A stretch of 64,000 bases of DNA from Stigmatella erecta (lineage in GTDB: Bacteria; Myxococcota; Myxococcia; Myxococcales; Myxococcaceae). The stretch covers positions 124,001-188,000 of the forward strand of contig NZ_FOIJ01000008.1 in assembly GCF_900111745.1 (NCBI RefSeq). The letters run 5' to 3'. The notes beneath the pieces were generated by a model. It had not been told where the DNA came from, did not search any database, and saw only the letters and a program-made list of their open reading frames with translations. The position numbers and the translations under genes were made by a program. Position 1 is the stretch's first letter. The number at the start of each line of letters is the position of its first letter. This document shows, piece by piece, positions 58,158 through 61,015 of this stretch.

Positions 58158-58652
58158 CTACCGGGGCCGGTGGATCCACACCGAGTCCCCCGCGCGCGCC
58201 GCCCGGAACACCGTGAGCGGGCGCGTGGCGGGGCCCTGGAGCACCTGCCCCTCCTCGCTGAAGCGCGAGCCGTGGCAGGGGCACTCCAGGAGCCGCTCGT
58301 GGGGCAGGTAGGCCACGCCGCAGGCGCCGTGGGTGCAGATGCTCCACACCGCCGTGTAACAACCCGGGGCGGTGTGAATCACCCACACGTCCAGCAGGGC
58401 CTCGGGGAGGCGCACCGCGGAGAAGCCCCCCGGCTCCAGCAGGGTGGGGTGCTCGGACAGCGGCACCTCCACCCAGCCTTCCTCGGGGGGGCCCGGCGTC
58501 ACGCCACAGGTGTTCTCCTCCTCGGAAGGAGGGGCGGGCGGGGACTCCGCGCCCCCGCACCCGGCACAGGCCGCGGCGAGGGCACAGGTGCCTCGCAGCA
58601 GGGTGCCAAGCGCGGTGCGGCGGCCCATGCGCGGGGCCCCCGCCGGGCTCAC
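58158..58652 (-). CDS. Exported Rieske [2Fe-2S] protein
   Basis: A 164-residue protein. The N-terminus MGRRTALGTLLRGTC has a twin-arginine-type signal with a possible lipid-attachment Cys (AACAGC). The cluster ligands are CTHGACGV and CPCHGSRF, the two Rieske boxes, correctly spaced. It has no transmembrane helix of the bc1 type, so it is a soluble or lipid-anchored electron carrier. Its GTG start overlaps the previous stop by 4 bp (GTGA), making it the last gene of a cobalamin-controlled operon; ATG 58628 is an alternative start. Confidence 0.88.
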   Translation of the reverse strand: MSPAGAPRMGRRTALGTLLRGTCALAAACAGCGGAESPPAPPSEEENTCGVTPGPPEEGWVEVPLSEHPTLLEPGGFSAVRLPEALLDVWVIHTAPGCYTAVWSICTHGACGVAYLPHERLLECPCHGSRFSEEGQVLQGPATRPLTVFRAARAGDSVWIHRPR

Positions 58653-59329
58653 GGGGTGGGCCCCAAGCTCACGCCGTTGACGACGGCGACGGCGTCGAGA
58701 TCAAACCCGCCGGAGGTGCCGCTGTAGCCGTTGGCGCCGCTGTCGCGGATGCGCACGAAGCGCGCCCGCGAGACGCCGAGCGTGGCCAGGTCGAACCCAT
58801 CGCCGCCAGCCACGCTGGGGTCCGTGGGGCTGATGCCGTTGTCGGGGTGAGAGAACACGGGCTTGACGCCCGCGCACCCGGGGAAGCCCCCGGGCCGGTT
58901 CGTGGCGTCGCAGGGGAACTCGCTCCACGTGGCACCGTCGTCGCTCACCGCCACCACGCCCGTCTCGGGAAAGCGCGTGAAGGCGTTCTCGAAGACGATC
59001 AGGTCCACGCCGGGACCGTCCACCACGGCGAGATCGGTGAACTCCAGGACGATGACGCCCTGCCGGCCCAGGCTGAGCACGTCCAGCGAGCCGGCGCTGC
59101 TGCCCTCGCCCCGGGGCGGCCCGAGCACGACGCCCGGGTACAGGTCCTGGCCGAAGCCCGCGTTGGCCCCAGGTTGGAATGAAACGACGCGGTCCGCGAA
59201 GGGGTTGGAGGCCGCCGCCTGGGGGGGATCCGAGTCCTGCTGCTCGCTGTCCCCGCCACAGGCGGTCAGGCTCAGGAGCGTGGCCAGCCCCACGCCAGAC
59301 AACCCTGCTGGAAACCGGAGGAGGCTCAT
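58649..59329 (-). CDS. Surface lipoprotein in a B12-controlled operon
   Basis: A 226-residue lipoprotein (lipobox SLTAC, Cys about residue 24). The mature domain is strand-rich with LDVLSLGRQGVIVLEF, GPGVDLIVFENAF, VSDDGATWSEF, GDGFDLATLGVSRARFVRI and SGGFDLDAVAV. This set is found in surface proteins of varied bacteria that I associate with B12-uptake loci. The Ser/Asp-rich loops may bind calcium. Its ATG overlaps the preceding stop (ATGA) and its stop overlaps the Rieske start. A role in capturing corrinoids at the outer membrane is inferred from the riboswitch. Confidence 0.75.
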   Translation of the reverse strand: MSLLRFPAGLSGVGLATLLSLTACGGDSEQQDSDPPQAAASNPFADRVVSFQPGANAGFGQDLYPGVVLGPPRGEGSSAGSLDVLSLGRQGVIVLEFTDLAVVDGPGVDLIVFENAFTRFPETGVVAVSDDGATWSEFPCDATNRPGGFPGCAGVKPVFSHPDNGISPTDPSVAGGDGFDLATLGVSRARFVRIRDSGANGYSGTSGGFDLDAVAVVNGVSLGPTP

Positions 59330-60642
59330 GGCTGGTCAATGCGGACGAGCCGCTCTCCGTTCTTGTCGGACACGCCCACGAGCAGGCTGCTGCCCAGCTC
59401 CGTGAGCGACTGGACCTGCGTGCAGCTGTCGACGAACTTCAGCACGGGGGTGGCAGGCCCCGGGGTGACGGAGCCCTCGCTGAGCGCCAGCGCCACGCGC
59501 GACACGTCCGTGTACGCGGGCGGCCAGCTGGAGCCGTCTCCGAGCAGCAGCGCCACGCCGTTGCCGAAGGCCGCCACGTTGAAGAAGTCGCTGGGCAGCG
59601 TCAGCTCGGTGGCATCCGAGAGGTTGAAGGGCGTCTTGCTGCTGAGCGCCGGCTGGTAGAGCGACGGCGCCGCGGCCCGCAGGCGGTTGGCGAAGCTCAG
59701 GCCATCGAAGTAGCCCAGCACGGCCACGCCCTCGGCGGTCACCGCCGTGTACCCGCTGGAGGCCTCCCAGGCGGGATCAAACCGGGCGAGCAGCGAGACG
59801 GTGGGCGGATCCGTCTGGGCCTGGAGCGCGTAGATGCCTGCCTCCACGCTCGTGATGCCCAGCCCCAGGCCGTTGATGAAGAAGGTGTCCTGGATCGCGG
59901 CGGCCGTGAAGTTACCGGGCGCGGAGAGGTACCGCGGGCTGGTGGGCGTCTGGGGCTGGTAGAGCGAGACGTAGCCCGGGAAATTGGCTCCGGACTGGGT
60001 GTAGCCGCTGAGCAGCCGCGAGCCGTCATTCACCAGGTAGCCACTGGGGAAGATGGTGTTGCCACGGTCCGAGGGCTCGATGATCGAGAACAGGGCCTCG
60101 CCACCGGTCTGCAGCGAGGGCCATGTGCCCAGCGGATACACCTGGTTGTCCGCGCCGCTCAGCCCATAGACGGTGTACACGGGCCCCGGGCCCACGGCCG
60201 TGACGGCGATGACGCCCACGGGCAGGGCCGAGCTCTCCGAGGCGGAGAAGCCCGCCTGCAGCTGGAGCGTGCCGAGCTTAGCGTCGTGAGGCACATCGCA
60301 GGGCCCCCCTCCGCCGTCCGTGCCGCCATCGCCCGTGCCGCCATCGCCCGTGCCGCCATCGCCCGGAGGATTGGGATTCTCGCCACCGTCCGTGCCGCCA
60401 TCTCCCGTCCCCGCGTCGCCCGGGCCCGGGTTCGTGGGCGGGCCGTTGGGATACAGGGGGACGCACTGCTCGTCCCGGCAGACCAGGGGATTGGCCGGAT
60501 CCTGCTGCTCGGCGTCCTCCTGGCAATCAAAGGAATTGGTGCACTCCTCGCCGCAGCCGGTGCCCAGGCCCACGAGCACGAGGGTGCCCAGGACGGGCAT
60601 CCACCGCGTCCACGTCTTACCGAGTCTCATCGCGTTCTTCAT
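59326..60642 (-). CDS. Propeller-like surface lipoprotein, first gene of B12-controlled operon
   Basis: A 438-residue lipoprotein (lipobox VGLGTGC, Cys about residue 30). A Cys-containing segment (CTNSFDCQEDAEQQ) and a Gly/Asp/Thr-rich repeat linker (about 72-110) lead to a strand-rich domain of about 320 residues. Its recurring YTVYGLSGADN, YLVNDGSRLLSGY and LLVGVSDKNGERLVR strands suggest a beta-propeller. B12-binding BtuG of Bacteroides is also a propeller lipoprotein under a cobalamin riboswitch, so an analogous role is plausible. GGAG lies just before the ATG. Family not established. Confidence 0.72.
   Translation of the reverse strand: MKNAMRLGKTWTRWMPVLGTLVLVGLGTGCGEECTNSFDCQEDAEQQDPANPLVCRDEQCVPLYPNGPPTNPGPGDAGTGDGGTDGGENPNPPGDGGTGDGGTGDGGTDGGGGPCDVPHDAKLGTLQLQAGFSASESSALPVGVIAVTAVGPGPVYTVYGLSGADNQVYPLGTWPSLQTGGEALFSIIEPSDRGNTIFPSGYLVNDGSRLLSGYTQSGANFPGYVSLYQPQTPTSPRYLSAPGNFTAAAIQDTFFINGLGLGITSVEAGIYALQAQTDPPTVSLLARFDPAWEASSGYTAVTAEGVAVLGYFDGLSFANRLRAAAPSLYQPALSSKTPFNLSDATELTLPSDFFNVAAFGNGVALLLGDGSSWPPAYTDVSRVALALSEGSVTPGPATPVLKFVDSCTQVQSLTELGSSLLVGVSDKNGERLVRIDQP
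60319..60363. repeat. Three exact 15-bp tandem repeats
   Basis: The unit CGTGCCGCCATCGCC is repeated three times without change. It encodes the GDGGT linker of the first lipoprotein and is a likely site of length change by slippage. Confidence 0.9.
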
Positions 60643-60761
60643 TGGCGCTCCGCTCCTCCGCCCCCTCCGGGCGAGTGACCTTCGAGGCGCGTGCGCGGAG
60701 GCTCCCCCGGTACGGTCCGGAGCATGCCTCCGTCACCTCCCCTCGGAGGTTCCGGTGATGG

Positions 60762-60782
60762 CCGTGCCGCTGGGCGGCACGG
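60762..60782 (-). promoter_or_regulatory. Hairpin just after the riboswitch core
   Basis: CCGTGCCGC and GCGGCACGG form a 9-bp perfect stem with a three-base loop, 7 bp 3' of the B12 box in the transcript. It may be part of the expression platform or the kissing-loop hairpin. No T-run follows, so it more likely affects translation or Rho access. Confidence 0.45.
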
Positions 60783-60784
60783 GT

Positions 60785-60947
60785 CCTGGGCAGGTCTTCG
60801 GACTCACAGGCGCGGAGGGCTCGCGGGGAGACCTCCTCCTACTGGCTGTCGCTTCCCAGCCCCGGATGGGGCCAGTGCTTGCGTGGACAGCGCTCGTTCC
60901 TGTTCACCGCTGCGGGGCAGTCCCGGACTCACACCGGGTTCCCTTCA
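60785..60947 (-). promoter_or_regulatory. Cobalamin riboswitch
   Basis: On the minus strand the conserved elements appear in order. AAGGGAACCCGGTGTGAGTC and CCGGGACTGCCCCGC (60912-60945) are the GGGAA/CGGTG core. GGGAAGCGACAGCCAGTAGG (about 60838-60857) is the P6-P7 region. The B12 box AGTCCGAAGACCTGCC lies at 60789-60804. It lies 140 bp upstream of the first lipoprotein gene in the same orientation. High cobalamin would be expected to reduce expression of the three-gene operon. Confidence 0.93.
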
Positions 60948-60969
60948 GCCCCCATGACGTCATGGGGGC
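60948..60969. promoter_or_regulatory. Perfect 22-bp palindrome upstream of the riboswitch
   Basis: The half-site GCCCCCATGAC (60948-60958) is followed at once by its exact reverse complement. It lies between the -10 element and the aptamer, about 10-31 bases into the transcript. It may be a protein operator, or in RNA a 9-bp hairpin with an ACGT loop. Confidence 0.6.
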
Positions 60970-60985
60970 GCCGAGGACAACCCGG

Positions 60986-61015
60986 GGGATATGGCGGCAT
61001 GCAGGCGTTTGTCAA
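60986..61015 (-). promoter_or_regulatory. Promoter of the B12-controlled operon
   Basis: On the minus strand a perfect TTGACA (61010-61015) stands 18 bp from TATCCC (60986-60991). Transcription would start near 60979, just before the palindrome and the aptamer. Confidence 0.65.

Follow-up and report, generated by a model that had tools for sequence, protein, structure and literature searches.

Several lipoproteins are known to take part in bacterial capture of vitamin B12. BtuG is a seven-bladed propeller lipoprotein bound to BtuB (PMC10404256). In Bacteroides thetaiotaomicron, BtuH2 contacts B12 through Gln333, Asn399, Phe401, His476, Tyr510, Trp511, Trp577 and Leu578 (PMC8941943), and BtuG1 (BtuGH) carries a propeller and an H domain fused in one protein (PMC12751083). 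BtuJ1 and BtuJ2, of the DUF4465 family, are B12-binding jelly-roll lipoproteins under B12 riboswitches (PMC12751083, PMC13398666). The literature that we found on BtuG, BtuH, BtuJ and DUF4465 concerns Bacteroides and other lineages. We analysed a 64,000-nucleotide stretch of the Stigmatella erecta genome (phylum Myxococcota; contig NZ_FOIJ01000008.1, positions 124,001 to 188,000; hereafter the window), in which a cobalamin riboswitch precedes an operon of three genes, g1, g2 and g3. We propose, with a probability of about 0.72, that these genes form an accessory B12 (cobamide) capture operon that would be repressed by B12 via the riboswitch and would hand its ligand to BtuB. The features of the locus are listed below by their positions in the window, with the source of each assignment (ORF, open reading frame).

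61010-61015, minus strand: TTGACA hexamer, -35-like, 5' of the riboswitch; perfect match to the hexamer (sequence)
60772-60990, minus strand: cobalamin riboswitch aptamer, RF00174 (Rfam cmscan, 78.9 bits, E 8.8e-18, full model)
60643-60771, minus strand: leader from the aptamer to g1, with a CGCCC/GGGCG hairpin near the GA-rich ribosome-binding region
59326-60642, minus strand: g1, 438-amino-acid lipoprotein (ORF list, signal, structure model)
58649-59329, minus strand: g2, 226-amino-acid lipoprotein with a BtuH-like domain (ORF list, profiles, structure model)
58158-58652, minus strand: g3, 164-amino-acid exported Rieske protein (ORF list, Pfam, NCBIfam)

The riboswitch and the gene layout agree with the original prediction, which had been made from the sequence alone. 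The covariance search that it proposed matched the aptamer well above the RF00174 gathering score of 31.5 bits, and this is the sole Rfam match across the entire window. The three ORFs are joined, as had been described, by two 4-bp overlaps (ATGA and GTGA). They are the only genes of the operon in the ORF list of the window, and none of the three products is BtuB, BtuF or a cobalamin biosynthesis enzyme, which the prediction had also stated. Its "good promoter" did not hold up: the -35 hexamer is perfect, but no acceptable -10 hexamer paired with it was found by inspection, and a sigma-70 consensus scan returned no promoter. Because no intrinsic terminator was found in the leader region, translational control is the likelier mode of action of the riboswitch on g1-g2-g3, and the hairpin beside the ribosome-binding region adds support.

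The second gene product, g2, is tied to a described B12 system. This protein has a lipoprotein signal (LTAC, lipid Cys24) followed by a domain spanning approximately residues 41-218, most of which is modelled with a predicted local distance difference test (pLDDT) score >90 (mean of the whole model, 86). In the structural comparison with BtuG and BtuH that had been suggested, two BtuH domains ranked top: BtuH2 (PDB 7biz; Z 13.9, root-mean-square deviation 2.5, 148 residues aligned) and the H domain of BtuG1 (PDB 8blw; Z 12.6). Below them came PAPP-A (Z 10.2) and CBM32/discoidin folds (Z ~9). Single-sequence Pfam and PDB sequence searches with g1 and g2 yielded nothing useful, and both BtuH and BtuG were also missed when the PDB was searched with profiles (A1, A2 and A6). 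Direct alignment of the g2 family profile to BtuH with hhalign gave a probability of 91 and E 1e-6 over 60 columns (Rieske control, 0.2), running across the pattern SLG..G.I..F....D..V..NAF....E.G.V.VS.D..W.E. A bait modelled on the Bacteroides family served to retrieve the BtuH sequences; only database-returned sequences were used, and all eight published contact residues stand in register in them. Asn399 of BtuH2 corresponds to Asn in 93 of 93 g2 proteins (Asn115 in g2 itself) and Phe401 to Phe in 87 of 93 (Phe117). Judged by these two residues, the nucleotide-loop (lower-ligand) side of the pocket is kept in g2, which also shares with BtuH2 its place in a B12-riboswitch operon.

We compared g2 with other families. 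It belongs to the same superfamily as the Leptospira lipoprotein LIC_13355 (NF033170), which has been studied as a host-ligand binder, with B12 not mentioned (PMC11891782). A score of 37 bits against a curated cut-off of 120 marks g2 as related to this family and outside the subfamily; in a broader g2 set, 51 of 53 members match it. We dropped membership in DUF4465 (BtuJ): none of 40 g2 members had a Pfam match to this domain at E up to 1, and the structural matches point to BtuH. A plasmid search with g2 returned no match.

Conservation of the locus was assessed in a sample of its family, the Myxococcaceae, where g2 is present in 37 of 58 genomes. For 35 of the 40 strong g2 matches, the same strand carries RF00174 1373-1704 bp ahead of the gene, a placement expected by chance at approximately 0.0003 per g2 gene. 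Of the other five, three are located on a short contig or close to the end of one; in the remaining two (L070 in genome G028 and L072 in genome G037) g1 and g2 form the continuation of the btuB operon, which has lost the second riboswitch and has no Rieske gene. The commonest order in the sampled relatives is riboswitch-btuB-propeller-btuF-btuC followed directly by riboswitch-g1-g2-g3. One locus (L095) has a single operon, riboswitch-g1-g2-btuB-propeller-btuF, and Corallococcus carries two g1-g2 cassettes with one riboswitch each. Myxococcus xanthus has the same cluster as the window (L110). In the Stigmatella genome a second cobalamin riboswitch precedes btuB, a propeller-like lipoprotein gene, btuF and btuC, and the g1-g2-g3 cassette lies far from btuB beside an unrelated LysR gene. 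Here the cassette has moved away from the btuB operon, and a separate riboswitch precedes either unit. When named genomes were scanned with a home-made RNA model (R1), a same-strand upstream riboswitch was found at 55 of 72 testable g2 loci (median distance 1.5 kb); as the sequences behind R1 come from the same family and distant riboswitches may escape it, the 17 negative loci are an upper bound. Beyond the family, g2 has a btuB-like neighbour in several lineages (L141, L148, L164 and L173).

Some loci depart from these arrangements. Genome G057 has an additional riboswitch-g1 unit with neither g2 nor a Rieske gene (L101:14255-15835). Two planctomycete-labelled loci (L162:764-5068 and L155:4424-6815) combine a riboswitch, a DUF1559 protein and g2, to which the first adds DUF6580 and a BtuF-like gene. 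A Myxococcus-type btu cluster occurs on a contig titled 'Comamonas sp. KCTC 72670' (L108; BNCN01000012.1, 1-16726), and the name looks wrong. On a short contig of a Bifidobacterium breve metagenome-assembled genome (MAG; HRS-HS13-bin-116, L137), the g2 and riboswitch scores equal those of an uncultured proteobacterium (L136), and this contig is probably misbinned.

CbiC is required in corrin ring synthesis, and MetE is the B12-independent methionine synthase. CbiC is absent from the Stigmatella genome and from eight of nine relatives tested; MetE is also absent from the Stigmatella genome and intact in one of 20 genomes tested. Because the genome has neither, the organism probably depends on scavenged B12. 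A fragmented, decayed metE stands behind a cobalamin riboswitch in another genome of the genus (G030; L191:4145-5131).

The first gene, g1, encodes a lipoprotein (signal LGTGC, lipid Cys30) with a Cys-rich N-terminus, a Gly/Asp-rich linker and a beta-propeller at approximately residues 114-438. The structure model (pLDDT 94, predicted template modelling score 0.92) confirms the propeller fold that had been predicted, and the propeller is confidently modelled with six blades. Its top PDB match is the designed six-blade Pizza6 (Z 18.8); many propellers are tied there, and BtuG is absent from the 50 PDB matches listed. Both g1 and BtuG are propeller lipoproteins encoded in operons with a B12 riboswitch; unlike BtuG, g1 has six blades in the model and lies outside the btuB operon here. 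As neither a structural nor a sequence tie specific to BtuG was found, we dropped the identification of g1 as BtuG as unproven. A better candidate for the BtuG counterpart is the propeller-like lipoprotein inside the btuB operon, which has Cys-rich repeats and is weakly YncE-like by sequence; its profile does not align with that of g1 past the signal and Cys region. In two g1 proteins (L026, 2100-2945, and L094, 7030-7860), sequence inspection places the N-terminal LGTL strand at the C-terminus, which appears to be a circular permutation, as expected of a propeller. The corrinoid-capture role first suggested for the two lipoproteins thus gains from the btuB-operon adjacency in relatives and from the BtuH fold and profile homology of g2, and loses the BtuG likeness of g1. 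By analogy, g1 and g2 look like a split form of BtuG1/BtuGH, differing from it in that the propeller and the H domain are on separate genes and a Rieske gene is added.

Under our proposal, B12 scarcity would lift riboswitch repression, and two outer-membrane lipoproteins, g1 and g2, would be made. The BtuH-type jelly roll of g2 probably binds cobamide from the nucleotide-loop side. Both lipoproteins would then pass the ligand to BtuB, encoded in the other riboswitch-controlled operon with its own propeller, BtuF and BtuC.

The third gene is the least expected member of the operon. Its product has an RR signal of the twin-arginine translocation (Tat) type, a hydrophobic stretch and a lipobox-like Cys32, followed by a Rieske domain (PF00355; score 38.5 bits, cut-off 20.3), in line with the exported Rieske protein that had been predicted. 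None of the 23 aligned orthologues deviates at the cluster ligands C106/H108 and C124/H127 or at the disulphide cysteines C111/C126. These residues form the motif CTHGxC...CPCHGS, with the disulphide cysteines and a conserved Ser, a pattern of high-potential bc1/b6f-type Rieske proteins. In its Rieske domain, both ligand boxes, disulphide cysteines and Tat-type export, g3 resembles the high-potential proteins PetC, QcrA and AioB. It differs from them in scoring far under the curated cut-offs (56.6 bits against 250 for the PetC equivalog) and in that its operon encodes neither a cytochrome b nor an oxidoreductase partner; by these two criteria it falls outside the cytochrome bc1/b6f Rieske subunits. 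We found no Rieske protein in B12 uptake, and no account of the myxobacterial cluster, in the open-licence literature; earlier mention elsewhere is possible.

Orthologues of g3 score >119 bits and other Rieske proteins <96 bits. The proposed survey of Rieske genes near cobalamin riboswitches bore out the linkage: in 52 of 55 cases the orthologue follows g2, the gene that the riboswitch so regularly precedes, at a distance of no more than 300 bp. The exceptions are in genomes G133 (an intervening gene), G139 (a different contig) and G131, where the orthologue lies away from the g1-g2 cassette and overlaps a full-length metE (L183:3740-6839). At this last locus no Rfam riboswitch was found in 13 kb, and the home-made RNA model gave one weak 19-bit match. 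Adjacency of g2 and g3 extends to Myxococcota and Deltaproteobacteria MAGs beyond the cultured genera (L113, L121, L123, L127 and L133). The linkage to g2, the metE overlap in G131 and the decayed metE behind a riboswitch in G030 all point to B12 scarcity.

What the protein does there can be suggested only tentatively. One doubtful but specific proposal is that the Rieske protein, made only under B12 scarcity, gives electrons to the cobamide held by g1 and g2 and so fixes the cobalt state for uptake. Within this mechanism, g3 would most likely carry single electrons outside the cytoplasm and thereby shift the cobalt of captured cobamide from aquo- or hydroxo-Co(III) to Co(II). Its high-potential pattern fits reduction of aquo-/hydroxocobalamin. 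A possibility that we place somewhat below even odds is that g3 makes no direct contact with cobamide and serves another extracytoplasmic redox step under B12 scarcity (e.g., methionine supply or repair), being co-regulated only. The displaced orthologue overlapping metE, with no riboswitch detected there, speaks for such a role, as do the high-potential ligand pattern and the absence of g3 from about one third of the g1-g2 cassettes in the family sample, which makes it dispensable, an accessory. The position of nearly all orthologues directly behind the gene for the BtuH-like lipoprotein, also in MAGs outside the cultured genera, argues against it.

We weighed the capture operon against several points that tell against it. 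The segment with the corrin-contacting Tyr510, Trp511 and Trp577 of BtuH2 is absent from g2, and Gln333 and His476 have no conserved counterpart in the same alignment. Unrelated propellers fit the g1 model equally well, and g3 is missing from a share of the cassettes. Furthermore, B12 binding by g1 and g2 and their surface location in myxobacteria are predicted properties. Because the segment of the corrin-contacting aromatics is absent, we class g2 as BtuH-like, not BtuH, and if it binds B12 the corrin ring must be held differently or jointly with a partner. Relative to BtuH2, it is also a shorter single domain without PKD domains. The missing corrin contacts would equally suit an improbable alternative, in which g2 binds another surface ligand such as a glycan and belongs to the B12 regulon, through the riboswitch, only as a BtuB partner or scaffold. 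The relationship of the jelly roll to discoidin/CBM32 folds is consistent with this alternative, as are weak F5/8 type C Pfam matches in seven of 40 g2 members (best E 0.053). However, the two BtuH domains exceed every other fold by 2-4 Z units, and the profile homology to BtuH, the close linkage of g2 to cobalamin riboswitches and the btuB-like neighbours in several other lineages favour cobamide as the ligand.

Two further explanations fared worse. The original prediction had raised removal of the upper ligand at the cell surface as a task for the Rieske protein. Reductive stripping of CN or an alkyl group from cobamide by g3 would suit its operon position and intact cluster ligands, but it is very unlikely because high-potential Rieske proteins of the bc1/b6f type are much too oxidising to bring about decyanation or dealkylation; of the predicted redox role, electron transfer to aquo-/hydroxo-Co(III) is the part that may stand. 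That g1-g2-g3 is an ordinary lipoprotein operon with an accidental riboswitch link, as its place beside a LysR gene and remote from btuB in the genus Stigmatella might suggest, is refuted by the conservation of riboswitch and gene order in dozens of genomes from different genera.

On the comparative evidence, the operon appears to be a real, conserved accessory B12-capture unit of the BtuG/BtuH kind, together with an unexplained redox partner. B12 capture by surface lipoproteins, so far mainly a matter of Bacteroidetes in the literature that we found, would thereby be extended to predatory soil bacteria for which scavenged B12 seems essential, and an uncharacterised lipoprotein superfamily comprising g2 and LIC_13355 gains a testable function. 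The conserved redox protein g3 is missing from every B12-import model that we found. If the Rieske protein does give electrons to captured cobamide, B12 scavenging in the Myxococcota would include an extracytoplasmic redox step.

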